Shown here piece by piece: positions 14,505 to 63,150 of a stretch of DNA of 64,000 nt. The notes beneath the pieces were generated by a model. That model was not told where the DNA came from and did no database searches. It saw nothing but the letters and a program-made list of their open reading frames with translations. The DNA is taken from the NCBI RefSeq assembly GCF_048128805.1, contig NC_136016.1:4263501-4327500 (forward strand). The letters are read 5' to 3'. A program made the translations under genes and the position numbers. This DNA is from Centroberyx gerrardi. Lineage: Eukaryota > Chordata > Actinopteri > Beryciformes > Berycidae. How positions within the stretch are numbered: the stretch's first letter is position 1; each line of letters begins with the position of its first letter.

Positions 14505-14536
<32 letters not shown>

Positions 14537-17500: not shown

Positions 17501-19362
17501 ATGAATAGTAGTAATTGGGCGTGTTCACACTATTTTGTAGAGAAAGTGCTACCTCAACTGCCTTTTGTGCTGATTTTGTAAAAGAGGATTGCGTTTCCAT
17601 AACAACCAGTAGTAGCTGCGACTGTCAGCAAACATACTTGGGTACAACTCTCAAACACTTACCAGAGAGACCTACAGCACAGCCAATGTACTCCGAGTGG
17701 CGTTAACACGGTCAGTAATTAGTATTTCAAAGTGTTGGATCCTCTCCTGATTGGTTATGACCACTGTGCATTAGGTCCAGGAGGTGGAGGCTCTGCTCTG
17801 TCTACCAACGGAGTCTTCCATCCAGCTGGGGGACGGGCCCGAGCCCAGCGAGACGTCGCACGACACGGCCCGCTCCTCCGACACACTCCGGCCCCGACAC
17901 ACCTGCCAGCACACGCACACTCGCACCAAACACCACTCCGGATCCAACGTCAGCTTCAGCCACGACACCGAGGGAGGCGAGGACGACCAGGCACAGGTAA
18001 CCCTCCGGAAAGTCATGGGAAATTACAGAAAATGCTTTTTTGTCATTTGAAGATTTTGGGAACTGCACACAAATGTATGGAAAAAATATTATTGTTCATT
18101 GATTGTCGTGACATGCAAATATGACTTCACAACTCAAGCTAAATTAAACTAAACTTTAATGATTAACTGAGTCATCGCAGCAGCAGATAGTAGGATATAG
18201 ATAAGAATAAGACAATAAGGATCTTTTGCTTTTATTGATTTTATGTAAAGCACACTTTCATACACTCCTTGTGTATGAAATAGGCTATACAAATAAAATC
18301 TGACTTGACTTTGGTTTTGACTTGACTTTAGGTTATTTGTCCTCCTTGTCTTTTTCTTTTTGTCCCATTCGTCCCCAGGACCTAGCGCTGGGCTGCCCGG
18401 ATGCAGAGGCCGAGGACTTTGTGTGCGACTACCACCTGGAGATGCTCAGCCTGTCGCAGGACCAGCAAAACCCGGTCAGCATCCAGTTCGACGACCTGTC
18501 CTGGCAGTGCCACCTGCCGTCCCTCAAGCCTTTGGGCCTCAACATCATGCTGAACCTGTGCAACGCCAGCGTCACCCAGCAGCTCTGCCGCTTCTCCGAC
18601 CACCTGTCCAACCTGGCACTGCAGGAGAGCCACGGCACCGTGCTGCCCGTCTACGTGCCCTGGGGGCTGTGCGAGCTGTCCAGGCTCATAGGTGTGTTAT
18701 TTTACACTCTGGCTTGGTTTGACCCTTAGTTGGGTTTGTTTGGCCATATGAGAACACAGTAATCAGACTGCGGCTTTGTTGAGAGGGAGGTTTTTACTGT
18801 TTCCAACCCTGGAGTTTTGTTCGGAGGGAAAACATGACATGACATGTTGAGTTTTACACCAGAAGAAAGTCCTTTCCCAGACTAACTTTCTGATCGATGA
18901 AGGAAATGGCTGCTCCCACATGGCTTTGATGATAAATTATGGCTACGAGTTGTTGCTTTGTTGCCTTTATGTATTGGTTTGGTTATATTTCACCCGGCGA
19001 AATTTCAAGCAAACTATAATTCATCTCCAAAAGCCACATGGGAGCAGTCATTTCCTTCATTGGTCAGAAAGTTGGTACATAAAAGGACTTTCCTCTAGGG
19101 TGAAACTCATCCATAACCCATAAATTACAGTGTTTTAAAGGAGTAGTTCACGCAAAAATCTATGGTTGGATCATAAAGTCCAAATGAATCTCTAGTGTTG
19201 GTTTGAAAACGTAGCGAGAAACCTCCCTCTCAGCAAAGTGTGTCTGATTTCTGTGTTGTCATTTTGATAAACAAACTAAGGAGGAAACCAATGACAGAGT
19301 TCAGTATTAACTGCTGTAAACCAACCAGGTGTACACCCCGACACAATTTGCCCTCTCAATTC

Positions 19363-19398
<36 letters not shown>

Positions 19399-22300
19399 AG
19401 GGTTCACCCCCGGCGCGAGGGAGCTGTTTAAACAGGAGAACCACTTGGCTCTGTACCAGCTGCCGTCCGGAGAGAAGGCCAAGGAGTCGGCTCCCCGTCG
19501 CCTGCATCACTTCATCAAGCGCCAGCCTCCCATGTCCCACCTCATCTCCCTGTTTGTACGAGACGCCTCCTCCAGTGAGTACACACACTTGTCTTTCTCT
19601 AGCAAGCTGCCTATCTCACTCTGTCCCACTGTGCTGTTTTGTTCTGCTTCGTCCTTTTTACCACAGCGCTGTTGGCAAGCAGAGTGAGACACTTCATTTT
19701 CATTTCATCATTTTGTATCATGTCTGTTTTTCACTGAACTGTATCTAATTAATAAAAGGAAGGTGTGAAAATGTACCTATAAATAGAATATTTTAACTAT
19801 AAATCTTCACACTAGCTGTATTTTTTTTCACAACTTCCATAATCCTCTTTTTGTATGTAAATTAAATTCACATGTCGTTACACAAAGGGAGAACTTGTTC
19901 TGGGTTCTTTGTTAGTTTGTATGGACTGCTGCCATACAGTGATGTATTGCGATATACATTTCTAAATCTTCTAATGATGATAATGCAGCACATATCTGGC
20001 ATTTTATAATAAATCGCATAGTTGTATAAGCAGTACTTCTTAGTATACTGTATGCATTTTGTCTTATTAATTCACCCTTTTTTCCCTGTTTCTTTTTCTG
20101 GCCTATATATGGCATAGTAAGTTGGAGAGTTAGTTTGTTTTCGTTTTTGACCTCCTGAAGTAAATAATGTAACTCGCTCTGTCTGCCCTCTGACCTGTCT
20201 GCTATAGATAACGTCCAGATGCTGTCCCACGGCTCGGCTGACCTCATTCTGGAGGCCTGCACTGACTTCTGGGACGGAGCCGATATCTACCCCTTGTCAG
20301 GCTCCGACAGGTATCACACAGACTGATTTATTTTCTCAAATTATCCAATGGAATTCAATGAAAGTGCTTCTAAAGGCATAAAATACTGGTATTCATATCT
20401 TAGGCTTACATAACTGTTTTTGCTCTTTCCTTTGCCCTCTTGCAGAAAGAAGGTTCTGGACTTCTACCAGCGTGCCTGTCTGTCGGGCTACTGCTCGGCC
20501 TTCGCCTACAAACCCATGCAGGTGTCGCTGTCCTGCCAGCTGAACGGGAAGTGCGTGGAGCTGGCCCCGGGTCCCAGCCTCTTCTCCGGGGTGGAGCTGC
20601 CCTCCACCACCCCCATCAAACACAGCTCCCGCAGGAACAGCTGGAGCTCTGACGGTATGGAGGAGGGACGGAGGGAGGGATAGTTAAGGGGAAAAGAGAG
20701 AGGGAGAACTGAAAAGAGTGGATTTTCAGTGGGAAAGTGATGGATAACTGCTCAAGTGTGTGATCCCCTCCTCACTACTTTGTCATTTCTCTTCCTCCCA
20801 CATTTTTTCCTTCTCTCTTTCCCTCCCAACATCTTTCCTCTACAGAGGGTATAGGTGAGGGTGTAGAGCGGGAGGACTGTGTCCAGGCCCTGAGTGGTCA
20901 GATCTTCATGGGCATGGTGTCATCCCAGTTCCAGGCGAGGCTGGACACGGTCCGGCTCATCGACGCCCTGGTCACTGCCTGCATCCGCTTCGTCTACTTT
21001 TCCATGGAGGATGAGCTCCGCAGCAAGGTGAATATATTATTCTGGGTTTCTACAAAGCCCAGATACATGTGAAACACCCCATGGTCAGCAGAGAATATTG
21101 AGACAAATAAAGTGGAATAATTATTTTAAAAAAAATCAAGATATATGCAACCTATCACACAACAGAAGAACATGAGAAGTGTTTCGGTGTGCGTTGTAAA
21201 AAATACTATTCGCCTTATCAATATATTCAATTTACAGATGTAGATAGCATAGGTGTTTAATGTGCAGATTTGAATATGTGCATTACTAAACATTCACCTT
21301 GTGGAAAAACCCCAGATGGAGGAACCATATTACACGTGTACGTTGTTGTCTGTTCTCATTAGCATCAATGCTATCTTGTCTGTGCAGGTCTTCGCAGAGA
21401 AGATGGGTTTAGAGACAGGCTGGAACTGTCACATCTCTCTGACTCCTAACGGAGATAGTCCCTGTGACGGAGGTCCATCCAGCCCCGGTCAGGGCTCCTT
21501 GCATGAAGACTTGAACCAAGGTACCATACCTGTGTTTGTGCATTTGAAACTGCGCTTATGATGTGTTTCTATGCATTGTATTCCGCTTATGCCGGGGATA
21601 CACTGCATGACTTTTAGGCTGGTTATAGCCACGATTTGGCTATCAGTCCTGATTTTCAAGATTGGTGCTAGTTTGGATCTGTCATACAAATTACCTTCTA
21701 GTGTGTCTGAGGTTTCAGGACTTTAATCTCTTGCCACCCAATCCAGTCGGAACCATCACCATTATTTCAAACACGCTTGATTTTTACGACTCAAATCTGG
21801 CCAAGTCATGACATCCTCCTGTAGTGTGAACTGGTCAACGAATCAAACCTGAAGTGTGTGATGCCCACTCTGTTTTGCGGTGTGTCCCCAACCTTAGACC
21901 GCTGTATTTGTATGTGTTATAGATTCTCGGGATGAGGCGGAAGGTCCATTACTCCCAGAGGAAGAAGCCCATTCTGACCTGGCCAGTTTCCAGCCCACGG
22001 ACAGCGATGTCCCCAGCTTCCTGGAGGACTGCAACAGGGTAACAATGGCTTTGTCAATACCAATAAAGTCACTGCGCAGCACTCTTCACAATGGCAAAGG
22101 GCCTGTGTCTGTTCCTCCTTCACCCTTACAATACAGGCTGGTTTCTCTCTTTGAACTGACGACTGTAAGTCCCTGTCCAGCTGTCTTACCCTGCAGAGTA
22201 TATTCAGGAGACAGCATATTATCCCTATTTTAGCTTTGATTCATTCCACTCTGAGATCCTCGGGCAACGTTCTTTTAGTGGTTTCACAGTCCATGCTGAA

Positions 22301-25300
22301 AACGAAAGGCTGATGGAGTTTTCTACACACTGTTTTTCGGCTTTCATTTATCTTCTAAAGTACTTCGTAACTCGATTTTGATAAGTGCTCTATAAATAAA
22401 TGTTATTATATTAAAGCTGAACTATGCAAGTTTTTGGGTGCATTGCCCTGTGGATTAACATATTGCCAGTGTACCATTTTGGAGTTAATTTGCTTTGATT
22501 TAGTCTAATGATGTTGATACTGAATATGTATCCTTCCTCCCTGCCCCTTCCCCAGGCCAAGCTACCTCGTGGTATCCACCAGGTTCGTCCTCACTTGAAG
22601 AACATTGATAACGTGCCTCTTTTGGTGCCCCTCTTCACCGACTGCACCCCTGACAGTGAGTCTTCATCTTACTTCATGGATAGAGCAGATGATCTGAATA
22701 ACTGCTGTCTAAAGAAATACACTGGATACACTCAGTGATGTTGGGTGCTTGGCTTTGAAGTGAAATTTACATTTACTCACACTTGTGTTTCTCCACAGCA
22801 ATGTGTGAGATGATGAAGATCATGCAGGAGAACAGGGAGGTTACATGCTGTCTGGGAAGTTCTGCCAATTTCCGCAACAGCCGCCTGTTTCTCCAGAGCG
22901 ACCTCAGGTATACACACACACCCCTAAACACCCTAAACAGCTGTTGTTTTGTTCATATTTTCATGTATAAATGAATGTTATTGATATTAGGGTTTGACCA
23001 GTGTTGGTTTTTCAAGGTTGATACTGATATTTTTGGATTGACACTGTTGATAGGCGATATTTTGTACCGATATTCAATATTTTACCATTTTGAATTTGAC
23101 CATTCCAAAAAATTACAAGCATTCAGTGTTTCCTCCAGATTTTCTATTCTTAGCAGGGTGGAAAATACTGATACATCATGTACCGGCACTAACCGCCTCC
23201 CTCCTCCCTCCTCCCTCCACAGCATCGCTCTGGACCCTCTGTACCCGTCTCGGTGTTCGTGGGAGACGTTTGGCTACGCCACCGGCGGAGGATTTAACGG
23301 AGATGCCGAAGGCCTGTCTCCTCTGAGGCTTTCTGGACAGCTCAACAGTCTGGGCTGCTCCGTCACCTTCCACCAGGGAGAGAGCGTCAGCATGGTCAAG
23401 CTCATAGAGCAGGTTCGGAACACTCACTCACACACACACACACACACACACTCAGAAAGTTAAATAGAGCTATTTCATTCATTGAAGTTGTCTATTTCTG
23501 AATCAATTCCAGGCGCGACACACAACTTATGGCATCCGCAAGTGCTTCCTGTTCCTCCTGCAGTGTCAGCTCAGTCTGGTCATCATCCAGGTGAGAGACA
23601 AACATAATACAAAACTGGTGTCAAATTGGCAAACATGTTTTGAACGTATGAATGTTTAGATACCTGCAGTTTTATTAATGGTTTATAAAGCAAATGGTCT
23701 TGCACTGAAGTAGGGATGCACCGATCCGACTTTTTCAGTCCAGATACCGATACCGATAACTGGGCTTTGGGTATCGGCCGATACCGAGTACCGATCCGAT
23801 ACCAGTGTTTAATTAATAAACTGTAGGCTATGCCTCACTGTGTGGAAGAGACTGGGATCATTCTTTTATGTGTAAAGCAACATCAGGCTTGACTTTAACA
23901 TTGCTTTCCTAACTTTGTAAAACAAAATGTAACAAATAAATACATAGATATAAATGTACTCAATTGTTATTTATTATTAAAATAATAAATAATCGTGCTC
24001 CAGCAACTTGGTAAAACATCTTCAAAATTAACAGGAATTACAATTCAAGTGTAAACCTTTTAAATGCAGCAACAAATTGGTCAGGAATTAAAATTCCAGT
24101 ATAAAACAATACAACTGCATCAAATGAGAACAAAATGTAAACATTAAATCACAATTAAGTCACAAACTAGTGCAAACAAACTTGATAAATTAAATCACAA
24201 TTCACACAAGTAGTATAAACAAGTAACTTGGTAAAAACAAAACATTCAAAATATGCAGAATAAACCTAAATTACTGAAATAACTCTGGCTTAACTGGTAA
24301 TCTTGCTTTATGAAACAGCCCTCAGAAAAAAAATCAAGGTATGTTAGTCTGACTATGTGTCGGCCGAATGGAGCAGCAGTACCTGACGAACAGGGAAAAC
24401 ACTTTAAATCATGTTGTGGCAGGAAACAACGTTGACCTACAGCCGAGTCCCCGTAAACCTTGGATTTATGAATGGAGTCTGGCTGGACGCGCCGATTGTA
24501 TAATTGGTGGAAAACTACTTTACCTCGCAGGTTAAATGGCAGCCTGCTCGGCCGCGCGGTGACCCGGGAGAGTTTAAACATATAACCGAGACAAAGTATT
24601 CATGCAGGTGTGTTTTTAACTACCGAGCATCAGCACCGACCCCCGGTCAGCTCACCCCGACCCCGGCTCTGTTATGAGGGTTGGGCGCCAGGTTAGCTTG
24701 TTAGCCTGGATGCTAGCTGCGGGAGGCTCGCGCCCCATGAGCGAGAATTCAGTGCGCGAGACGCTGCGCGGCAGGCGGGATCCTCCGGAGCTGCTGGACC
24801 GGAGGAGCCACCGGACGGACCGAAGGCAAATGGCCGGGTCTACCGGCTCGCTGCTGACGCATGACGTAGTATGCGCACGTAGACATAAACATAGAATTGA
24901 ATTGAATAGATCGGCCCCATTGTCACCGATACCCGATCCAGCTATTTGAGTCAGTATCGGACCGATATCCGATATCAGTATCGGATCGGTGCATCCCTAC
25001 ACTGAAGTACATTTTAGATGTGCTTGTGTGTTACGAACCCACTAGAACCCTTAGATCATCAGGTAGAAGCTTTTTATCTATTCCCAGGGTTAAATCAAAA
25101 ACCGGGGTAGCTACTTTTTGGTTTTATGGACCAAGTAAATGGAATGCCCTGCCTGAAGCTGTGAGAGGTGCCACAAGACTTAATGCTTTTGAATAAAAAC
25201 TGAAAAATTATCTTTTTAATGGTGCCTTTGACTAGGCTTTAATCAGTTTGGGTTCTGGGAGCCTATAGTTTGTATCTTATTATTTTTTACTTTATTTTAT

Positions 25301-35124: not shown

Positions 35125-38100
35125 ATGGACGCAGTGAAGGAGGGTCACAAGAGCACCCTGAGCTCAGGCAAGATGGTGGCCCTGGCTGCAGGGCTCTCGG
35201 TCGGGGCCACAGTGGGCTACATTGTCTACCGCCATATAAGCAGCACCAACCACTGTGAGTCTATGACTTGAGGGTTAAAATGCAAAAGGCAAATGTAAAA
35301 TCCATTTGTACACAAGCAAAATATGTGGATATATGACACATTGAAGATTTAGTGTAATTTATTCCCTGATTAACTTGGCTGTGAATGACATGGTCTGTTC
35401 TGCCGTTAGCAGCTCAGCTGCCCAACATTGAGGAGTCCAGGATGACACTTCCCCTAGAAGTGTATAGGAACATATCCAGATACCAGGCCACGTTTTTGGA
35501 TATGGTGAGTAGTGTAATACCAGATGACTACTGTGCATCAGCTCAAAGTAGTGGAAGTGGTTGAGATTTGAAAATGAAGTCCATTCTGTATATTTGTTCT
35601 CCCATAATAGGTAGCGATGCACATTTGCCCACACATCCGCTTCAACTAAAAACCTCTAAATCTGTCAATGAAGACACTGTATCTTTATTTGTTGTTATTT
35701 TTCTATTCATTCTGTTGGTGTGATTACTTTTTTTCTGCACTAGTACTACTGTCTTATTCTCTCTATTGTCTTATTCTTAGCTATATCCTGTTCTCTGCTG
35801 CTGCAAAGACCCAATTTCCCGATGGGGATCATCAAAGTTTCATCTAATCTAATCACCATGGGGGTCTATACTGTGTCTATGGTCCCACATTTATTTATAT
35901 TTAAAAATTTGCTTTAGTTTCGCTTTATTTGTGCATCTTCTGTTAAATTGTTTATTGCTACTTCTAAGGCTGCATCTAGAAAGCGCTAGCGCACCTGTTG
36001 CAGACATGTTCGATTTTTAGGACTCAAATCTGGCAACAGCCAATGAGAGTTGAGCTCCAGAGAAAGGAAAAAAATACAGCAAGTGTTGGAAGAAAATTGC
36101 TCCACCTCCATGCTAGTTCTGTTTCAGCATTGCAGCAGTGTGAGAATTTGCTTTCGCAAGTGCTGGTGTGTGTTTTGCAGTTAGTTTTGGGGAACACACA
36201 CACTAACTGGCTGCCAAGTGTGTGATGTCCAATCTTTTCATCCTGAGTCATGTCGTGTGTCCCCAGCCTAACTCTCTGCTCTCCTGCTGTCTCTCCCTCT
36301 CTCCTCCTCTATTTCCAGGTGAACCAGAAGTCTGGAGCTCATGTCAGGGTGCTGCCGGAGTCCGGGGAGCCCGGGTGCCAGAGCGCTGTGTGTTTTCTGC
36401 TGCACGGCTCTCCAGAGCAGGTCCTGCTGGCCCGCTGCGTCCTGGAGAACCTGGCCACCGACTGTGAGCCGGCCACCGAGGTCTTGGAGGTTCCTCAAAC
36501 CGCCTACGGCCGGATCATAGGTAGCGTACAACAAAAACATGTTTGTTAAGGATGATTGGATTAAGATTTCTTCTGGCAATTTTTCTCAGGGCTTTTTGTT
36601 TTCAGCACTGGCATTGAGCTAATGCTGTACAGCCTGCTGCAAATAAAACTCTTATTAGATTTTCTCCTTGGTGAACTCCTGTGATACCATTTGCTTACCT
36701 ATCTGCTAGACTTGGTGTGTCTTTAGGTTTAATTAATATGTTGTTTTTTTTAAGGCTGATGCCAATATTTAATGGATTGAAGCTGCCGATAGCAGCCATT
36801 TTGTGATATTCTATATCTGTATTATGTATTCAGTGTTTCCTCCAGAATTCTATTCTTGTCAGGATGGAAAATCCTCTAAAACTACATTGAGACCATCATG
36901 GAACACTAAAACTCTTCATTGAAAGCCAGGAAAATATTAATATTCTTGCATACTTGTGTGGAATCTGATCAAAATGTCTTAGAATCAGGTCAGAGGGTTA
37001 AGGTTAGGGTTATGTCTTCCCATAGACAACCAGTGTAGTATTGATCAATTCTACAATAAATATGTAACTAATCAAACTGCATCATATCAGAGGTGGACCA
37101 CACTGACCGGGCCATATCTGGTAATAAAAGGCCAATCTGTTTATCTAACCTTAGTGTCCATCCCTGTGTGTGTGTGTGTGTGCTGCAGGCCGAGGGGGAG
37201 AGTCTCTGAAGCTGATCACCAGGACCACCGGGGCCAGAGTAGTGTGTCCCAAGGAGAGGACGCAGGGCCTGGAGGCCAAGGGCAAAGTAACGATCACAGG
37301 GACCCGGCAGGAGGTCAGACAGGCCAAAGTGAGTGGGACTCAGCCATTTTGGACACTTAATTCCACTTAACTATTGACATGTAATTGAGAATGAATGAAT
37401 TTCCTTTTCCCATTTTCTATTCCCAGGAGATGATTCTGGAGAAAGTCAGAGATGACATGGCGGTGAGGAAGAAAATCTCCCAGTCCTCGGCTCTGCGCCA
37501 GAAACGACGGCCCCAAGACCCGGAGGGTCAGAGGCCGGACATCATGGAGACGGAGCCAACAGCGGGCTTGAACAACAACGGCCCCTATTCTCTCAAGGCA
37601 GAGGAGAAGGGGCTCGTCCAGGCCAACGGGACCACAGGAGAACCAGAAAAGATGTGCGACGAGGCACAGGAGCTCAAAGCCACCGACCCAGGGAACAAGG
37701 AAGAGGAAGAGGAGGAGGATGAGGATGAGGCGGAGGAGGAGGAGGAGGAGGAAATCATCTCCCCAGACTCGCTCTCTGAAGTGTCCAAGTTTGAAAGTGA
37801 GTTTGCATCCTCTCCTTTTCAATATTTACTCATATTTAATATTCATTGTGCACAATAGCTACAATGCATATTTACATATTTCTGTATATTTGTTCCTTCT
37901 GGTGATGCACATCTGCCTCAATCTGGAACCTGTCAGTGAAGATGCTGTATCTTTATTTCTATATTTATTTGCTGTATTCTTATTTTTCTTTTGATACATT
38001 CGGTGAATGTAATTACTTGTTGTATTGCCTTCAGTAATCTATTGTGTTATTCTTTATATCTCATTCTTTGTTGTTTCGACAACTCATCTAATCAAATCTA

Positions 38101-38650
38101 CCACAGCTAATATTTCCTCTGGGAGATCATATTTTATTTTCTCCGTATGGTGTCCCAGTTCCCAGCCCGGACCTGAGCTTCCAGCCCGACGAGCACCTAG
38201 AGGTTTATGTTTCCGCCTCGGAGAACCCGAACCACTTCTGGATCCAGATCCTGGGCGTTCGCTCGCTCCAGCTGGACAAGCTGACTGAGGAGATGAGCCG
38301 CTTCTACAACAGTAGCACCCCGACTGTAAGGAGAAATCCTACAATTTATGTTCTTTCAGTTGTAGGGGAAACGCATAAAACAAAGGGAATATATACATGA
38401 GCAGTGATGGGTGGTAACGCTTAATGGAGTAATGCATTACCGTAGTATCATTACTTTTCCTAGTAACGAGTAATGTAGCAAATTACTGTTTCAATTAGGA
38501 TTTCAATTAGAGTTAGACTGATATATCGTTTGCTCATATATCAGGTCTATTTCATTGAATTGTTCAATAATGTCTTTGTAAATTAATTCCCCTACCACTG
38601 AGCAGGTGTGGTGGAAAGTTTTAGTGTTCCATGATGGTCTACATTCTGGG

Positions 38651-38712
<62 letters not shown>

Positions 38713-41700
38713 TTGAAATTTTTTGTGCATGAAAACTTTAAAGATAAAATTTAAAGATATTGAATATCGGCACAAAATATTGGCTAACGGCGACTTCAGT
38801 CTAAAAATATCGGCATCGGCCTTCAAAAATACATATTGGTAAAACTCTAGTTTAAATCTCACTAATAAAATTACAGATACCCATCAAGAAAATAAGTTGT
38901 TACTTTTGTTATTACCACTTCCTAAATATTGTATTCAAGTGGAATCATCCAAAAACTATAAATATCCTCCCCCAAGTAGATGACAAATTATACAACAGTT
39001 GACTTTCTCTCGTTGGAAGTATTCCCACTACTTTGATTTTCATCCAGTAAAAGGAAGAGAAGAACATCAACACTTTCAACACTGCACAAGAGGCTGAGAC
39101 CTGCCACAAGATCCTATTGGACTGCGTCCACTACTTGCCATTGTCCCTCTCATACTATAAATTTAAGAAATGACAAATCTAATCCACAAAGTGGCTTTCT
39201 GGTTGTCTGTCCTGCAGGAGCAGAGGGTGGAGACCATTGTGGTGGGGGACATAGTGGCCGCTCCGTACCGAGACCACGGCACATGGAACCGGGCCAGGGT
39301 GCTGGGAGTGCTGGGCTCCGGACTGGTGGACCTTTACTACGTGGACTTTGGGGACAACGGGGAGCTGCCCAGAGACAGCCTCCGCAGTATGAGGTGAGGG
39401 ATCAGGGCTTATAAGGTGAAGGAAATGTCACGGTCATAACTGGGTAGTTAGCATGAGCAGTGATAGCCACCATGGCTGAACAGATAAAGAAAAGAGCGCC
39501 ACCTACAGAAACTCACACTGCATCAACAGAAAATCCAAGGAAAAAGACGTGACAGTACTGGATTGACAAGTGATCTCTGCATTTTTTTGTATTCAGTATT
39601 ATTTTGCATTTTGTATGTGGTACTAATAAATGGCACAGCGTAGTTGTTTACGGTAGCTTTTGCTGCATTTGCATTTCAGGAGCGACTTCCTCAGTTTACC
39701 ATTCCAAGCCATTGAATGCAGCTTAGCAGGAGTGAGACCAGCAGGTAAAACTGATGTTTTCAACTTTATCGCACAGGCATATAACTAAGAATAAGATATG
39801 TGCTATGGTCTGTGCAACACTTATCGCTTTAATATTCTAATTCAAAATAGAAAAATGGAAAATTGAGTGCATTACTCAAAGAAATAATGTGAGAAAGTTG
39901 AAATATGGGTCTAATAAACTGGGGTATTTTTAATTTCAACAGCATAGCATAGGTTTATTGGCATAGGGTACAGCAAAGTGATGTCTGGACTTGCTTCTTA
40001 TTGGTCAGTGGGGCCCAACATCCCTTTTCACAACAGCCATCTGGATGTGGCATAGCAGGGTAAACACAGGTGTAACAAATAACATTAATGATGGTTCTAT
40101 TACATTTAGGCGTGCCACAGCCATTCCAATGAGCTAGCATGCACAATACCAGGGACCTGGCACTGGAACACCTAAGTGGATTGGAACCATCATTAATGTT
40201 ATTAGTCACACCTGTGTTTACCCTGCTATGACACATCAAAATGGCTGCTGTGAAAAGGGTCCTTACTCCAGTTTAGTGTCCAAGACCGATATTTCAATCT
40301 TCAAGTCAATTATCTAAGTGGCAGCAATGTGAGGGTTTAGAATATTGCACTAAATTGTCCAGTTTTCTCTCTGATTTTGAATTAGACTATTAAACATGCT
40401 ATGTGCATCCTAATCTGACTGTCCCACTCTGTTGTTCAGGAGAGGTGTGGACCGAGGCGGCCCTGGATGATTTTGACAGGCTGACATATTGTGCTGAGTG
40501 GAGACCCCTGCTGGCCAAGCTGTGCAGCTACTCTCACTCCGAGATCTCCTCCTGGCCCAGCGTCAAGCTCTACGACAACAATGAGGGCAAGGTCAGCCAG
40601 GAGTCTCCGCCCACTTCATCATGACTGTTTAACTGTGGCTGCTGGCTACATATTTCATGTATCATTGCTTTGATTTATTTACTCTCTCCCTCTGTGTGCT
40701 GTTTTCCTGGTTGCACATATTATGTACTGCAGGCAGTGGATCTGGGTGAGGAGCTCATCCGGCTGGGCCATGCTGTCGGCTGTCAGGATGTGGTGAATGG
40801 GAGGGGCGACGGAGACAACCTCGGCTGTCTGCAGAGGATGCTGGTGAGTGACTGAACAACCGAAAGTGTTATTAGCCTTATCAGCTCTGACAGTGACAAC
40901 TAGGGTTCAACTGATGTGTTCTGAAGGAAGATACCAATGTTTTGGATTGAAGCTACATTTTCTATCTTTAAATTTGACAATTTTCATGCCAAAAAAATTA
41001 CAAATATTCAGTGTTTCTGCCAGAATTTATTCTTGACAGGGTGGAAAGGCTTCTGAAACAGCATTTAAATCATCATGGGACACTAAAAGTCTATTGAAAC
41101 TCAGGATGATAATAATAATAATAATAATAATGATAATAATAATAATAATAAAACATATTCATGCATGCTTGTGTGGAATCCAACCAGTGTTGCCAATTCT
41201 GCAATAAATATGTAATCAATCAAACTGCATCATATCCATCATATCAGAGGTGGACAACACTGACTGGCTGATATCTGAATTTTAATAAAAGGCCAATATT
41301 GGCCCCATATATCAGTCTAGTCCTAGACTGCACCCCTCGTGGAAATATCCTCTCAATCCTCAAACACATTCAGACGTCCTTATTTCTTGTCCTCCTGCAG
41401 GATGACGTGATCGGAGCCTCGTCAGAGCTGAGTCTCTCCTGCATCAGCTTATCAGGTAAGTTCAACACAATGAATGATCTGTAAAGGGGAAGTTGTTTAG
41501 TGTGCGACTCCAGCAAAATCAAAATCTCTACTAATCTCTACTCTGTATTACTGTTATTTTTTGGGGGATTGGGATTGATTAAAGGCAATTTGCAGCAAAA
41601 CGGAGAGTGGGTGTCGGCGCGGGTGTCGGCGCGGGCGTCGTCCTCGCCGTCGTCCTCGCCATCATCCACATCGTCGCCACATTTACTGAGATCCCTGGAG

Positions 41701-43695
41701 CTCCAAAGGGCCGACGCAGACGACAGCCTCTCGTCCGGATTCGGCCGTGGCTTCGCCCACTCCACCCCGGCCGAACCCATTCACATCGCCGAGTCGTCCG
41801 CAATAAACCGCAACGCCGGCCCCTACGGCGACGACGTCTCCGTCTCGCCGCTGCACCTCACAGACACGCAGCTTCCCCTTTCCGAATCCTCCACTTCGTC
41901 CTGTTCGACGCACTCCTCGTGCCTCGGGGCGTCGACAGGAGATTTCGGCTCCGTGGCGATCGGCGACAACCTGGAAGGAAGCAGCTACGACGGAGACATA
42001 GAGGGCGAAGCAGCCGGGTCGTCCGCAGAAGGAGGAACCACGGAGAGCTCTGACTCCTATTGGACCGCAAGCATGGAGGAAGAGGAGAGCCTGCTGGAGA
42101 ACCGCAGCGGAGGAGTCATCAGCATATCCTCCACATCCGCCTGCTCCCACACAGGCGAGGACTCGTGCCAGAGCGACGAGGATCAGCAGGACGAAGATGA
42201 AGAGGACAGTCGATGTGGCAGTAACTTTATAGATGGCAGCGTGGTTACGGTGAGTGACAGCAGCTTCCTTAGTGGGAATACTAGCAGTAGCAGTGACGTT
42301 ATTTACATGGGGTTCACTGAGCCTGCTAGAGACTGCGTTCAGCCCGACGGAAGGAAGCGGGAACAACCGAAAAGGAAAAAAGGGCCGCCGCCACCGCACG
42401 CACTTGCAGTAGAACTGAGCGCGGTGGAAGACGGGGCAAATGGCAACCAAAACGGAGCTGGAACAGACGAGAAAACCGAGGATCTGGGAAATACATCGGG
42501 CGAAGAAGAGATAGAAGATGCTAGGAAGCCACAGCCGAGGAGGCCGGTCTGTTCCGACACAGGAGGCAACGGCGTCAAGATGAAACCGGAAGACAAAGAG
42601 CCTCAGTCTTACTCAATTCAGCAGGAGATGCTGAGACGGCGAATGGACCGTTCACCAGAGCGTCTGGCCGCGACGCGCAGCCAAGAATCAAACGGAGAAG
42701 TGCAGCAGAAATGTGCAACCGACACCCTTAAAGACTCGAAGGAAACGAGAAAGGAAACCGTTTTCAACTCTGACACTCGCTCATATCCAACAGATTATGA
42801 TGGTGAATATTGAAAGAGAACTCCTATTTTCACACAACGGGGGTCATTTCTACAAGAGAGCACATAAGGAAGCACTGATATCTCTTACACCCTTTTCACA
42901 CCCATGATCCAGGAATATTACAGTATTGGTGTACCATGACTAACCAATGCATTCATTCCAGTACTTCTAATTTCCCACGGGTAGTGCAGGCACTCAAACA
43001 CTGGAGGCTTGTAGCAACTTATAATCAAATAACTGCTGGATAATGTTAGAATTTGTCAAAATGTAATAAAATGTCTCTCTTAAATGGGTTGAAAATGTAA
43101 TAAAACCTGTAATGAATTCCTGGATAATGTAATAACATCACATTATTGCATTAACCAGCGATTGTGACTTCATGATATAGCACAATCTCCAGTATGTAAT
43201 TGCTTTTATACAGCAGTTACAACAAAGATAGAAGCTTTGGGTTTTAATTTAATAATTTTTGTTTGGGCCTTCAACAAAGAAATTAGTTCCCCGTTGCTAA
43301 GCAATAAACATCCTTGCTTGCTTGATACTAAGTGAATAAATGAAATGTAAACAAGGCGGAGGGGTACCATAGGAGTTATATAGTACAAGTTTGTATATTG
43401 CGGTTATAAGCACTCATGGAACACCTGTCTTCCAGTTACAATGTGTGGTTGGAAACATGTTTTATAATAATGGGATATTACATACCTTATCTGGCAATTA
43501 TTACATTATCAGTTGCTACAAGGCTTCTGCACTGCGGTGGATGAAAATGAAAGTGGATACTTGACTCAAGCTGTTCAGATTGCTGGTAGGTTAACTGCTG
43601 AATGTCCATTAACTGGAGTGTCTTCTCTTTATACTTCAGAAGTCGCCTCAATCTCAGGAAGCGTTGATGACGTTCTAGAGGATGAGCTGTTCTGA
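35125..43695 (+). CDS. tdrkh: Tudor and KH domain-containing protein (piRNA pathway), with a large extra exon
   Basis: Conserved coding exons: 35125-35254 (exon may begin 35094), 35410-35504 (or from 35413), 36319-36520, 37189-37328, 37427-37796, 38159-38325, 39218-39393, 39680-39744, 40440-40591, 40733-40843, 41401-41455, 43640-43695; plus the extra exon 41585-42802. Without the extra exon they make 572 residues (human about 561); with it 978. Order: N-terminal membrane segment (about 17-36), degenerate KH1 (about 44-120), KH2 with an intact GRGG loop (143-146), acidic run (281-298), Tudor domain (about 313-430, core DLYYVDFGDNG). The family anchors on the outer mitochondrial membrane and binds methylated arginines of PIWI proteins during piRNA 3'-end trimming. 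The last exon, VASISGSVDDVLEDELF, matches the mammalian C terminus, so the conserved gene end is certain. Confidence 0.93.
35605..35850 (+). repeat. LINE-like tail, family D copy 1
   Basis: GATGCACATTTGCC, TCAATGAAGACACTGTATCTT and GTGTGATTAC recur in the same order at 37893-38125. Ends CCCAATTTCCCGATGGGGAT then ATCTAATCTAATC, like non-LTR tails with short terminal repeats. Confidence 0.45.
35985..36270. repeat. Relative of the 21593-21895 element
   Basis: Shares GATTTTTAGGACTCAAATCTGGC and the end TGTGTGATGTCC...GTGTGTCCCCAGCC. Ends about 50 bases before tdrkh exon 36319-36520. Confidence 0.4.
36725..37154 (+). mobile_element. Dispersed family A, copy 3
   Basis: Contains CAGTGTTTCCTCCAGAATTC, TTGTCAGGATGGAAAA, ATCATGGAACACTAAAA, ATTCTACAATAAATATGTAA and AATAAAAGGCCAAT in the family order. 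Fills most of tdrkh intron 3. Confidence 0.65.
37893..38125 (+). repeat. LINE-like tail, family D copy 2
   Basis: Same block order as 35605-35850, ending in TCATCTAATCAAATCTACC; about 30 bases before tdrkh exon 38159-38325. Confidence 0.45.
38512..38856 (-). mobile_element. Dispersed family A, copy 4, with (TA)n block
   Basis: Begins AGAGTTAGACTGATATATCG and ends ATCGGCCTTCAAAAATACATATTGG then AAAACTCTAG. The family block CCATGATGGTC is directly followed by a (TA)n run at 38653-38710. Confidence 0.65.
38653..38710. repeat. (TA)n microsatellite
   Basis: About 29 TA units; self-complementary and able to form a cruciform. Lies inside a family A element. Confidence 0.95.
40021..40260. mobile_element. 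Foldback palindrome in tdrkh intron 8
   Basis: Left arm 40021-40097, right arm 40183-40260, spacer 85 bp. Perfect core blocks: AACATTAATGATGGTTC against GAACCATCATTAATGTT, and CATAGCAGGGTAAACACAGG against CCTGTGTTTACCCTGCTATG. Only a few mismatches separate the arms. No ORF. Confidence 0.8.
40900..41328 (+). mobile_element. Dispersed family A, copy 5, with (AAT)n block
   Basis: Starts AGGGTTCAACTGATG. Contains ATTCAGTGTTTCTGCCAGAA, CAGGGTGGAAAGGCTTCTGA, an (AAT)n run at 41108-41150 and AATTTTAATAAAAGGCCAAT near the end. Confidence 0.65.
41585..42802 (+). CDS. tdrkh: Extra in-frame 406-codon exon of tdrkh, disordered acidic/serine-rich
   Basis: The exon before it ends in phase 1 (TCA G/GTAAGT). 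Acceptor GATTAAAG at 41584 leads into an open frame in the matching phase; the donor GATG/GTGAAT at 42802/42803 restores phase 1 for the last conserved exon. The length is 1218 = 3 x 406. The frame has no stop across the whole stretch. The peptide is rich in Ser, Glu, Asp and Gly, with SSSPSSSPSS near its start, an acidic DEDQQDEDEEDS run in the middle and a basic KREQPKRKKG patch later; no globular domain is recognisable. Codon use is GC-rich with many CpGs. The mammalian protein lacks it. It could instead act as an alternative terminal exon (TGA at 42811-42813). Confidence 0.7.
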
Positions 43696-44530
43696 GACCA
43701 AAGACGTAAATATCAAGGTATTAAGTTGTTTTGTTTTTTTGATAAATGATATTACCAATCTGTACAAAATGAATGGTATAATGACCCCCAGCTCTCATCT
43801 TCCAGCACTGACCATCAACTCCTCAGCATCAATTCAAATCGGATGAAGTGAACATTTCCTTAGCTGGCCCAAACCCAACCACACGACTCCTCATCAAGAA
43901 GCCTTACTTACTTGACAAGTGTGCGACAGACAGTTCTTCCAGCCATATTCGTTTTGCTGTTGCTACTCCAATACGGGATACATTCTTCAGCTTTTTGTTT
44001 TTGCCTTTCACGCTGTTCTGTTCTGCCTACCGCTGCTTTGCTTTTATGTGTTGTTACTATGCTATGTGTTCAGTTACTGAGAAGAACAGTGAACAGTGGA
44101 ACAAAAAATGGAATGCCAGTATTATTATTGATGTTTAAAGCACTGTGATATAAGTCACTGGAACCAGAGGGCGGGTGGTCTGTGGCTACTGATGTTCGGT
44201 TTCTGTTTGCTTTTTACTTTTTTTTTCCAATTTGTATGTACATTAAGATTTAAAGGCCTACATATTGGGCTTCAGAAGTTACCTATGTTGTGGAAATGAA
44301 AATATATCCTTGAATGTGGTCCTCATATTTTGTTCAATAGGAAAATGTTACATATCATTAGCTAACTGACAGAAGAAATTGTTGGTTTGTCTGCAGAGGT
44401 ATAATAGATTGCACTTTAATAAAGGCTTTATTTTATGTCTTCAGCTTTGTGGCGTGTCTTCCACTTTCAAACACTGCATATGACACCATAATTGTATATT
44501 TCTAAATAAAGTATGGATAATGAAGAGCAA
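43696..44530 (+). other. tdrkh: 3' UTR of tdrkh
   Basis: Follows the conserved stop codon. Two polyadenylation hexamers lie at 44418-44423 and 44505-44510. Short ORFs in it are AT-rich and not recognisable. Confidence 0.6.
44418..44423 (+). terminator. tdrkh: Polyadenylation signal AATAAA (tdrkh, proximal)
   Basis: Canonical hexamer about 720 bases after the tdrkh stop, followed by T- and TG-rich DNA. A second hexamer at 44505-44510 could serve as a distal site. Confidence 0.5.
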
Positions 44531-45038: not shown

Positions 45039-54531
<9,493 letters not shown>

Positions 54532-56277
54532 GGGGACGAGGTCGGACGGAGCGGGACGCACGCCGGGGACGGGACACACACACACACCTCTGGAAAGGCC
54601 GCGAGGATCAAGACGACCCGCCTGGAAACGCACTCGCAGACCAACGCCACGGCCCCTCCCATCCGATCAGCGATGGCGAGCGGGAGGAGGCGCGGTCGTC
54701 TGACGCTCCTGAGAAAATCCCGGAGAGACAAATTTTTTTTTTTCAAACTTCGTAGCCGTGCGTGCACAAACTCAGTCACTCACAAAACCTGTCACGACTG
54801 AGGGGTTCGAAAGCACCCGGGGGCGGGTCGCTGATGTCCGGGCATTCTCTTTTTTCGTATTTCCAAAATCCTCTCTCTCTCCTCTCCCGTCTGAACGATC
54901 CGCCCGGACGAGAGACACTTTCAGCTCTGGGGCGGATCCGCGAAAACCTCCTCTCTCTCTCTCCCGGGGAGGAGGGAGTCCTGCAAGATGACGTCAGTCC
55001 ATCCTGCCTCTGCCAACACTCTGGGCCACGCACAGAGACCTGTAGAAACTGTGAGCAACTTTTTATTGAGCCAGGTCTTTAGGTTTTTTTTGTTTTTTTT
55101 TGTTTTTTTTTTGTCGTCGTCGTCGATTTCAGGTTATGAGAGTCAGCCACTGAAGGCAGAATTTCCATCGGGCCTCGGGAGAGAAGAGAGGCTGGCAGAG
55201 AGAGAGAAAGAATTGTGTATATTTTGATTTTGATTTTCTTTCAGAACAATTTCGCCAGGTGGACTTTTACTTTGTTTATAGTACTTGAAGTTTTTTTTTT
55301 TTTTCCCTTTTTTATTTTGTAATGTTCAGTTTTGGAGTTGTTTTTGTCTTAAACGATGATTTACTTATTTTTGCGTATACATTTTTGGTGGCTGGATGGG
55401 AAACTTAATGTGCGTCGTTGCATAAGAGTGATTATATTCATATAGTATGATGAGACCTATTCATATAGAACTACAGTATATAAATATTAAGGTTTGTGAT
55501 TTGAAGAGAGTGAGCTTTGAATAGTACAGTGCTGCTCAGCATTATTGATATTCCTAACTTTCTTTTCTTTTTGATGATGATTCTGTTTCTTCCAATATTA
55601 GCTGCCGTCTTTTCCACAGCTGCACTTTTCTGATTCGCATTACAGAACCGATATATATGATTTAAATTAAAAATGTAACAATATCATTCAAGCAAAGGAA
55701 AGTGGGTGTTGTGGAGAATATCTGGTCTGTGTTACAATTGTTTTAATATCCACATTTTGAGCTGAATCACGCCTAAAACTGTAACTGTCACTTTTCCTTT
55801 CAGTTCCATCTGGTAAACTATGGACTGACTCACCTAGGATAAGCTTAATGAAGAGTGTGTCATATGTAACAGTGTTAGGCTGGTGTGATATCTTAATGTG
55901 GAGTTCTAGGGACCTATCGCAGTGACCAGATATCCCACTACACCGCCACCCATTGCAAGGCATTGAAGGAACTCAAAGCAGCAGCGGTGAAGTCTTATGT
56001 GCCAGTATCACTATTTACGACATGATTTAAGTGATATCTTCGTTCTGTAATGTCGGAACAAAGATAGTGAAGCTGTGGAGATGCAAAGCTACTTTAAAAA
56101 AAAACAAAAATCACCTCATTTTCGAAGAAATAATGAGTAACACATTTGCAAGGCGAGACGATAACTGAGCAGCAGGGTATGTTATATAAATGAGAAACCT
56201 TACTGGTATGATAGGGCACACTCTGACATGCTTTTTTTTGTTTTATTCCCATTGTCCAAACCTGCATATTTTCCTGC

Positions 56278-59723: not shown

Positions 59724-60039
59724 GGAAAGCGGATCACCTTTTAACAAAACTGACAGCAAAGACAAATTCAAGTCGTTAACTGTACATTCAAGGTTGGGAA
59801 TGGAATGTTTAAAAAGGGAATGGAGCTCAGGAATGAAACTGGAAATGCAGACTTGGACCTCCAGAGAGACCAGACAGTACAGTATGTTGAGGCATGGTGG
59901 GTGATGAGGAATGTGGGAAACCGTCACCGAGACACCGATCTACAGTCAGCTCTTCCCCCTCTATCCTACGTGTGGAAAAAACAGGAACTTGAGGCGAGCC
60001 GACTGGTCCCAGGTCAGTGTCTGAGGGCTGCTGAGCGGC

Positions 60040-62916
60040 TCAGTAGAGCCAGCTGAAGGCACAACTATCGTAGCTGACCAGCTCCTCGGGCTTCGGGAAC
60101 CACAGAGCGATCTCCTTCTTGGCGCTCTCTACTGAGTCGCTGCCGTGGATGATGTTCCTGCAACAGGCAGAGAGGAAAACTAAGACCAACGCAGTGACAA
60201 GAATCGAGTCGGCACATAAATACTTAATATTCAAGTATGAGATATTCCACTATATACATACTTCTGCATGCAAGCACATCCTGGATGCCAGCATTACTGA
60301 CAATCTATATAGTAAATGTTTTTCATCTCACAGACCCCCCCAGATATGCACATTAGGGCCTGTGTTTGATTAAAGTTTCCTCCCAGGGACCCCATAATTG
60401 TGAAATCTCCAATTAGAAAGTCATTCTTTGACATTTTCTAAATGGGACAATATCCAGTGAATTTAAATAAACCATTTCTCGTTTTGCTGGGGACCCTCAA
60501 GGACCCCTGGGATTTCTGCCACTTTGAGACCTGCTGTTTTAGGCAGTGCTTTCAATCAAACTAGCATGAACTACAGACATTAAATGGACAGTTTGCAAGC
60601 AGAAGCCTCGGTGCCTGCAGGAGGCCAAACACGGCCTAGTGCCTCCACCAGGAAGGGAGAATGCAAACGGCACTAACTTGCTGACGTCGATGCAGAAGTC
60701 TCCTCTGATGGTTCCAGGCTTGGAGTCGGCGGGGTTGGTCTCGCCCAACATGACCCTGCCTGTCTTCACCGCGCCCTTGCCTTCCCACACCTAGGATTAC
60801 ACAAGAGCAGAGGGATATGAGCAGAGGTACGAGACTAGACTGCAGCCAATTCAGCAGCTGGCTTCTCTTCGAGCATCTTTTTGACTGCAAGCTACAAATT
60901 AATTGCTTAAAAACACGAGGTGCTCGAGCTGCCTGATGTTCTGTCATAATCTCCATGATAAACATAACAGTTATGTTAATGAGGCATTAGAAAATATTTC
61001 CATGTCAACATACTTGTCCTTACATAACACATGGCTGGTATTAATATGAATGCCATATTTTAACATTAAGAAGTTATAGTAGTTTCAAGAAAATTCCTGA
61101 TTGTGTGATGTGAACGTTTTGGATTGCTACAACCATCACCTCATCAGGAAATTTTGTCATTTGAAAACAAAAAAGATCCAAAAGCAGCAAAGCATTTGAA
61201 GAAAAGTTGGGTATTCATTTGCCACAATTCCAGGTAGGGAAAACAAGTTACAGACTACAACTTTTCTCCCAGGTTTAAGACCTTTTGGCTCAAAAGGCAT
61301 CTAATGTTACTTTACACCATGTTATCTTCTGGTGTCTTACCATGGCAACCACTGGGCCAGAGTTCATGTATTTGATGAGGGTAGGGAAGAACGGCCTCTC
61401 CTTCAGGTCGGCGTAGTGCTGCTTCAGGTGCTCCTCGGAGGCCTGCGGCAGGTAGACACAAGTTATTAATTCCTGTAACTACTGAGGTAGATCAAAGCTC
61501 AGGGCTTACCAACTACACAGGTGGGTGGGATCTTTTCCAATAAGACTGTATGCTGCATTCATATCTTATGGGAAAAGATAGATACAAGTTTCCTACTAGA
61601 AGATACCCTTCACCTCAACTTCCACTACTTGGGAAGTCAGGGGTTTGGCGACAGACCCCGATTCACCACTGAGGTGATCCAACGCCTGTAGTTAAATGTC
61701 AGGGATGAGGAATTTGTCATAAAACCAGCAAAACGGACAATTTTCATCATTTAAGTCATTTTGTCAAAACTCTTAAAATGCCATGGCAGGACATGACTAG
61801 TTGCTGGATTTTTCATTTGTGGTTGACATTACAATGTTTGGGTTTGCTGTCAAACATCAAGTCAAATGTATCACTAAATGCATGTGTCAAGCATTGAAAG
61901 CTGACAAGTAGTAACTAATGTCCATAGAAAATCATGGTGTTTGATGCCGTCAAATCTGTGAACACATTCAAATCGTCACTTTGAGCTGACAAGTTGTCTC
62001 AACATTTACTCCCATATGATGGTAAGCGTTTAAAATTTAAGTAGTTGAATACCCAGAAATCTTGTAATGTGAAGTCAGTAAACTGCACACAGCACGGTCA
62101 TGTTTACCAACTCAGCTGGATTGTGATGCTTCATACCAAAGGAGACCAAAGAAAAAAAGCTCTTAAAGAGATCCAATGTTTGTCAGTCCAGCCTTCTCTG
62201 GACAGAGCGCTGCTCACTGCTCTTTTGGAGACATTTCATTCCCATGTTTTGATTTATCACTTCCAGTATAGAGAAGTGACCGTAGCAGACAGAATTTCAT
62301 TTGGGCAAATCTGACGTCTCAATTGTGGGGGGTGGGTGGACGTTCTTCAGTTGTTGCCCCACTTAGGCTCATAAGTGGGGCAACAGGTGCATTTTACATA
62401 AAATCTTGCATAATGCGGTTCTAAAATAAGCCACAGTGAATCGTGACCAGTTAAGCGTCGCGCCACCAGGTCAGAGATCACAGGGAGATGCTACAGAGGA
62501 TAACGAAACCTCAACTCAGCACTAATCGCTTGTGCTACAGTCAGGAATAGACGAGCAAGCTAATCAGCTCACTGGAGGTCTTAGCTGTCACTGCACAATC
62601 ACAAGATCATGTGCACATAGGTGACTCAACCCAAGAGAACACTAATAACCATTATGAATGCTATGCAACCAATATCAAACCATTTGCCTTAGATGCAAAT
62701 ACAGGCCTATGTTCCAAGCACATTGTGTGTGTTGTAGTGTCACAGGCCTGCCAACAGTTACACAAGAGTCATTGATTTGTTACTTACATGGAGCATTTTC
62801 ATGCCAACGAGTTTGAAGCCTTTCACCTCGAACCTCTTGATGACCTCACCAATAATTCCCCTCTGGACGCCATCGGGCTTGATGGCGATGAAGGTGCGCT
62901 CCTCAAGCTCAGCCAT
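60040..62916 (-). CDS. nme2: Nucleoside diphosphate kinase A/B type, 4 coding exons
   Basis: Minus-strand coding exons in order: 62916-62788, 61442-61341, 60790-60678, 60157-60040. They join to 462 nt, 153 residues, against about 152 for the family. Transfers the gamma-phosphate between NTPs and NDPs through a phosphohistidine. Seen: KPDGVQRG (13-20), the EEHLKQHY and KERPFF segments, [14 protein letters not shown], and the catalytic motif NIIHGSDS with His119. The signature residues are all intact, so the enzyme should be active and cytosolic. Lack of a signal peptide and the [16 protein letters not shown] segments favour the NME1/NME2 group over NME3. The exact fish paralogue cannot be fixed. 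The tail reads [11 protein letters not shown], one residue longer than the usual WFKPEEL, and the usual terminal Glu is absent. Confidence 0.93.
60300..60540. repeat. Possible old hAT (Charlie-like) remnant in nme2 intron
   Basis: GGGGACCCTCAAGGACCCCTGG and CACTTTGAGACCTGCTG resemble the GGGGACC / TTTGAGAACC landmarks of the element at 34480-34757. The left end is unclear. Confidence 0.3.
61765..61975. repeat. Dispersed repeat B, copy 2 (nme2 intron)
   Basis: Aligns by eye with 1968-2195: AAAATGCCATGGCAGGACAT, TTGCTGGATTTTTCATTTG, GGTTGACATTACAA, CAAATGTATCACTAAATGCATGTG, TTTGATGCCGTCAAA. Confidence 0.55.
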
Positions 62917-63150
62917 GATTCTGCAACAAAGTAACGAGGATTTAAAAAACAAAACGCCACCAGCACACAATGTGCAGCAGCAACAAGTGTGGAAAATCAC
63001 TCACGCAGTTTGGGTGCACGTGGCACAGTCGGTGGGGCCGGATGCCGAGGGCCCCGACCCCATTGCAAAGCAAATTGCATTGACTGCACCGCCGGGGTTA
63101 GTCTGGATCTTGCAGTGCGAACAACTTAACTGACTGACTTAGTGTGTGTT
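62788..63150 (-). other. nme2: nme2 5' noncoding exon, intron 1 and start-codon exon
   Basis: On the minus strand a donor (CTGC/GTGAGTG) ends a noncoding exon at 63005. A short intron with acceptor TTGTTGCAG leads to the exon 62920-62788, whose ATG sits four bases in. A noncoding first exon followed by an ATG right at the start of exon 2 is usual for NME1/NME2 genes. Confidence 0.6.

Follow-up and report, generated by a model that had tools for sequence, protein, structure and literature searches.

A candidate 1218-nt, phase-symmetric exon in fish tdrkh that would add a long, probably disordered arm to a Tudor-KH protein

TDRKH / Tdrd2 / Papi is a mitochondria-anchored Tudor-KH protein of the piRNA pathway, 561 residues long in human. 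According to the sections of a mouse study considered here (PMC10943014), TDRKH has a preference for unmethylated MIWI, which it retains in unloaded form at the mitochondrial granule, a bond that is weakened by piRNA loading, and excerpts of another report (PMC12624062) describe the recruitment of TDRD1 to mitochondria by TDRKH and PIWIL1 together in transfected cells. The closest precedent for the variant described below is zebrafish ddx4-L, with its alternative exon 4, an isoform that, in the words of an introduction (PMC11673608), regulates germ-granule aggregation through phase separation. Internal exons longer than 1000 nt, some of them RBMX/RBMXL2-dependent, are described in mammals with RNA backing in the excerpted parts of a further paper (PMC11446547).

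Here, we analysed a stretch of 64,000 nucleotides of the Centroberyx gerrardi genome (the window), in which the tdrkh gene carries a long open frame between its last two exons. As with ddx4-L, going by the introduction of that report, a fish germ-granule protein would here be varied through an alternative exon; however, the gene is a different one, and the tdrkh exon is a candidate read from genomic sequence. It is likewise long (1218 nt) and contains a strong inner donor of cryptic type at 42249, resembling the ultra-long exons as excerpted from PMC11446547, but those are mammalian and RNA-backed, whereas the tdrkh candidate is read from DNA and has a poor acceptor context. The Tudor-KH family, ultra-long exons and disordered alternative exons are already known, and what would be new is such a variant in a piRNA receptor. 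We consider it reasonably probable that 41585-42802 is a genuine tdrkh coding exon that probably behaves as a cassette in alternative splicing.

In the window, tdrkh comprises 12 exons (35125..43696, forward strand) with AG before every acceptor and GT after every donor, which join into a 571-aa product. The relevant features are:

35125..40843, forward strand: tdrkh exons 1-10, encoding the N-terminal hydrophobic segment, KH, acidic linker and Tudor
41401..41455, forward strand: tdrkh exon 11, acceptor score 13.7, donor score 12.5, ending in phase 1
41585..42802, forward strand: candidate tdrkh exon 12, 1218 nt = 3 x 406, phase 1 at both ends, adding 406 residues
42811..42813, forward strand: TGA, 9 nt past the putative donor, the end of the frame if that donor is unused
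43640..43696, forward strand: last tdrkh coding exon, acceptor score 10.3, starting in phase 1 and encoding the acidic tail ...EVASISGSVDDVLEDELF followed by the stop

A Pfam search of the 571-aa product returned a KH domain (PF00013, residues 127-193, E 4.8e-19) and an extended Tudor domain (PF00567, residues 321-443, E 1.8e-26), with a single KH stretch and no second KH at the setting used. The nearest solved chain is 6pi7_A (E 7.2e-78), a Tudor and KH domain-containing protein, aligned to residues 322-527, and the hydrophobic stretch MVALAAGLSVGATVGYIVY in the translation is a candidate mitochondrial outer-membrane anchor. The last exon, which we take to match the tail of mammalian TDRKH, lies beyond residue 527, where the best solved chain stops. 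Among 40 matches of the tdrkh protein in the 779-Mb genome, 11 fall at the tdrkh locus, including the 8 best; the other 29 are weaker (E 1.4e-12 or worse) and resemble other Tudor or KH genes. With KH and Tudor in common, the 571-aa form of the fish protein is an ordinary TDRKH, and it is the 406-residue insertion that sets the longer candidate form apart. We know of no TDRKH with such an insertion, and among the papers listed on the topic, titles and abstract openings yielded none on a long fish Tdrkh form.

The preliminary description of this DNA had placed at 41585-42802 an uninterrupted, phase-symmetric frame of 1218 nt that nearly doubles tdrkh. The coordinates and length are right, with flanking AG and GT; the end of exon 11, both ends of the candidate exon and the start of the last exon share phase 1; and no stop interrupts the frame between 41485, 100 nt upstream of the acceptor, and 42810, just before the TGA. 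Because the phase of the exon (1/1) is that of the junction it interrupts, the product grows in frame from 571 to 977 aa, an enlargement for which "nearly doubles" was generous wording, the factor being 1.71. The reading frame is kept with or without the candidate exon, as in a cassette, and if both sites are used, the internal exon would belong to the ultra-long class (>1000 nt). Retention of the whole intron after exon 11 is unworkable, since codon 10 read on from exon 11 is TAA.

That such a frame is unlikely to have arisen by chance, as had been claimed, is borne out by its codon content and by its openness. The codon model was built from 1319 window codons, 571 from tdrkh and the rest from 12 segments chosen by a tdrkh-trained scan, so that the latter are not independent. 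With this model, the frame scored -0.07 per codon (shuffles averaging -0.42; z 6.2), a value matched by none of 2000 dinucleotide shuffles of the candidate exon, in none of which the frame stayed open; a model from tdrkh exons alone gave z 6.8, as high in 0 of 1000 shuffles. No in-frame stop occurs in its 405 codons, compared with 6-15 in each of the other five frames. An open frame produced by chance in a GC-rich block could appeal to the order-2 Markov copies, 2 of 2000 of which reached 405 codons (a lenient control, trained on the ORF itself, where order-1 copies gave 0 of 2000), but given the dinucleotide shuffles and the codon signal we assign this explanation a negligible probability. 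Of ten sliding windows with starts inside the exon, nine placed the ORF frame top of six, some by hairs, and in the first a reverse frame scored slightly above it. The period-3 signal was 8.7 for the candidate exon and 25.8 for the joined other tdrkh exons; in equal-length sliding windows, it reached 8.4 and 4.3 where these overlapped the exon and at most 4.1 elsewhere.

The signal is unevenly distributed along the exon. The 5' part (41587-42249) has a codon z of 6.6 and a frame open in 32 of 3000 shuffles, whereas the 3' part (42250-42801) is weakly biased in its codons (z 1.9, a level reached by 90 of 3000 shuffles) and has a frame open in 0 of 3000; GC3 drops from 0.77 in the part up to 42186 to 0.53 in the rest. 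Codon-frame signal, openness and a break in composition together give good support to the coding nature proposed earlier, and 41585-42802 is likely to be real code whose 3' part is less biased.

The complementary strand also carries a long frame:

41686..42612, reverse strand: antisense ORF of 309 codons, probably a shadow of the sense code

If the coding strand were the reverse one, this frame would be the gene, casting the sense frame as a shadow, and its openness (in 0 of 1000 shuffles) and codon score (z 3.0-3.2, with 0 or 3 of 1000 shuffles as high) would be explained. Over the same span, however, the sense frame scores z 6.5-7.0; it stays open past both antisense ends and matches the tdrkh phases, while the antisense frame ranks third of six over the whole candidate exon, making a reverse-strand gene extremely improbable. 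A second forward frame, open for 156 codons (41583-42050, forward strand), runs across the start of the candidate exon; entered from the AG at 41594-41595, it reads as a hydrophobic, membrane-like sequence, GAGVGAGVVLAVVLAIIHIVATF, probably a by-product of GTC/GCG-rich sequence.

The high CpG content reported in the preliminary description was also found. CpG observed/expected is 1.07 in the candidate exon, compared with 0.55 in the window and 0.52 in the other tdrkh exons, and TpG/CpA observed/expected is 0.96, showing no excess, against 1.22 in the other tdrkh exons. Change-point analysis delimits a GC-rich block that starts at 41583-41610, the acceptor being at 41585, and ends at 42678-42760, somewhat before the donor. 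The undepleted CpG would fit a block that is either unmethylated in the germline or young. Further CpG-undepleted blocks lie at 24301-25200 and 54101-55200, the latter around the end of an apparent MBT-repeat gene.

If the intron harboured a separate gene or an alternative promoter, the CpG-rich block being an unmethylated island with its own start, this would account for these CpG and TpG/CpA values and for 600-bp windows over the block with GC >0.5 and CpG observed/expected >0.7. The first in-frame ATG, however, is residue 163 of the ORF, downstream of much of its best-scored part, and the strong coding signal ahead of this ATG means that the frame needs an upstream exon. As the start of the GC-rich block also coincides with the splice acceptor, we regard a nested gene or promoter as very unlikely.

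Several other origins were considered. The DNA of the candidate exon has a single match in the 779-Mb genome, namely itself, and a protein search of the same genome gave only itself and one match at E 4.4; a duplicate, retrocopy, paralogue or exonised repeat was rejected on this single-copy result. For a viral origin, six short peptide patterns compared with viral contigs gave 8 pattern matches, none of which was confirmed, and no relative was found. The intron before exon 11 (40844-41400) is repeat-rich, with at least 50 genome matches (40 of 4847 candidates scored).

Splicing of the candidate exon into tdrkh is plausible from its phases and from the layout of its splice sites:

41529..41584, forward strand: putative 3' splice site, with TACTAAT at 41529-41535, then pyrimidine-rich sequence and AG at 41583-41584
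42800..42808, forward strand: putative 5' splice site, ATG/gtgaat, score 6.1, a value reached by 4.7% of the 3872 GTs in the window

With a simple matrix, the candidate acceptor receives -4.1, the lowest score of the gene's 12 and one that is matched or exceeded by 62% of 3936 AGs; its near tract (-20 to -5) holds pyrimidines at 6 of 16 positions. Further upstream, the branch-point-like TACTAAT places its A 51 nt before the exon and is followed by sequence that is 75% pyrimidines. The 69 nt before the acceptor's own AG are AG-free, and the first AG past TACTAAT is the in-phase one. A branch-point-based score, devised after the motif had been seen, places the candidate acceptor in the top 2% of AGs; by the same score, one other tdrkh acceptor fails outright and four more rank no better than 14-20%. 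The forward strand of the window has 9 occurrences of TACTAAY, against about 13 expected. The motif and the AG-free zone may partly offset the poor near tract of the putative acceptor, which is support rather than proof.

The poor near tract and the weak codon bias of the 3' part are also what would be expected of a former exon in decay, or of one that was coding only in the lineage's past, but 0 stops in 405 codons, against 6-15 in the other frames, and CpGs without decay speak against this explanation, which we judge highly improbable. Returning to a cassette exon, its weak borders lie between strong outer sites (exon 11 donor 12.5, last-exon acceptor 10.3), an arrangement that would point to skipping by default and to regulated inclusion.

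Within the exon, a donor at 42249 (ACG/gtgagt) scores 10.4, compared with 6.1 for the end donor, and is surpassed only by the donors of exons 11, 7 and 10. It defines one further element:

42250..42621, forward strand: possible in-frame exitron of 372 nt, acceptor ...caattcag/CAG scoring 5.1, both ends at codon boundaries

The exon might be shorter or split, either by removal of 42250-42621 as an in-frame exitron or by an end at 42249. The score of the donor, the acceptor at 42622 lying at a codon boundary (5.1), the divisibility of 372 nt by 3, the drop of codon bias past about 42249 and the cryptic sites known within ultra-long exons, as excerpted from PMC11446547, all favour such a structure. 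Against it, none of the 184 codons beyond 42249 is a stop, which holds for 0 of 3000 shuffles, suggesting that they are translated at least sometimes, and an exon ending at 42249 would leave the last exon out of frame. We consider a shorter or split exon distinctly unlikely.

Downstream of the candidate exon lies a repeat that bears on how the exon ends:

43005..43525, forward strand: dispersed repeat in the intron after the candidate exon, with inverted ends (42-nt arms, 81% complementary)

The repeat, from about 43000, has at least 71 genome matches (40 of 874 candidates scored) and contains AATAAA at 43065, 43099, 43303 and 43335; a second repeat is seemingly nested within it. The candidate exon could be an alternative terminal exon, in which exon 11 is spliced to 41585, translation stops at the TGA at 42811 and cleavage follows at a downstream AATAAA, giving a product of 962 aa that ends ...DYDGEY and has no acidic tail. 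Such a structure would make downstream splicing unnecessary, and both the TGA 9 nt past the putative donor and the AATAAA at 43065 and 43099 would suit it. These AATAAA sites are, however, part of a dispersed repeat, and an in-phase donor (6.1) stands just before the stop, a coincidence of roughly 3% by rough estimate; we hold a terminal exon to be unlikely.

The encoded peptide of 405 whole residues is rich in Ser (17.3%), Glu (9.4%) and Asp (8.4%), in line with the composition given in the preliminary description, and has a net charge of -36; RKREQPKRKK forms a basic patch, and the middle is strongly acidic. No Pfam family matched it at E<=1, as expected from the earlier statement that it holds no known domain, and a PDB match to coiled-coil domain-containing protein 12 (E 0.039) was judged to be chance. 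On a Uversky plot, the peptide falls on the disordered side of the boundary, and AlphaFold2 run without an alignment gave a mean pLDDT of 41, with 363 of 405 residues below 50, weak evidence in that it comes from a single sequence. Composition and predicted fold thus agree with the disorder proposed before, and the peptide is probably disordered.

Two motif-based roles, bearing on the earlier suggestion that the extension could tune PIWI binding or germ-granule condensation, were tried and rejected. An intramolecular RA/RG pseudo-ligand for the Tudor groove, prompted by SARVSARA and GFGRGF, found no enrichment of the dipeptides (9, with 7.0 expected), nor did a CK2 phospho-arm find enrichment of CK2-like sites (17, with 16.8 in shuffles); no single motif mechanism is therefore favoured.

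In the mechanism that we propose, skipping would join exon 11 to the last exon and yield the ordinary 571-aa Tudor-KH protein, and inclusion, in which the spliceosome would use both candidate sites, would insert 406 mostly disordered, acidic, Ser-rich residues downstream of the Tudor region and ahead of the short acidic tail, with the frame unchanged. The strong outer sites might favour skipping, with inclusion being regulated. More tentatively, the long arm might act as a spacer or as a multivalent acidic arm, altering the way in which Tdrkh, anchored to mitochondria, assembles PIWI and granule partners, akin to the effect on germ-granule aggregation ascribed to alternative exon 4 of zebrafish ddx4; following the Tudor region, an arm of this length could keep such partners apart, crowd them or steer them electrostatically. 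Going further, one could imagine in this fish lineage a two-state piRNA receptor, in which the acidic arm of a germline-regulated exon turns a PIWI dock into a granule scaffold and the exitron provides a third state, a speculation to which we attach little probability.

If the exon is included, a fish isoform longer by 70% would be a natural variant with which to ask whether a mitochondrial-side disordered arm governs the gathering of PIWI into the granule and its exit, and tdrkh would join ddx4 as a fish germ-granule gene in which splicing controls disorder. Should the exon never be spliced in, the locus would still be instructive about intronic frames that are long, open and CpG-rich.

Around tdrkh, the window holds a presumed TMEM94 at 9600-24000 (forward strand), a gene at 45900-54530 (forward strand) that we take to be an L3MBTL2-like MBT-repeat gene, and what is presumably a nucleoside diphosphate kinase at 60000-63000 (reverse strand). 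Elsewhere in the genome, C17:6604548-6609278, C18:4313553-4316798 and C18:19628287-19632459 are each a single open frame, 1885 to 2005 codons long, with several Tudor-like matches, and these three probably represent large intronless Tudor genes.
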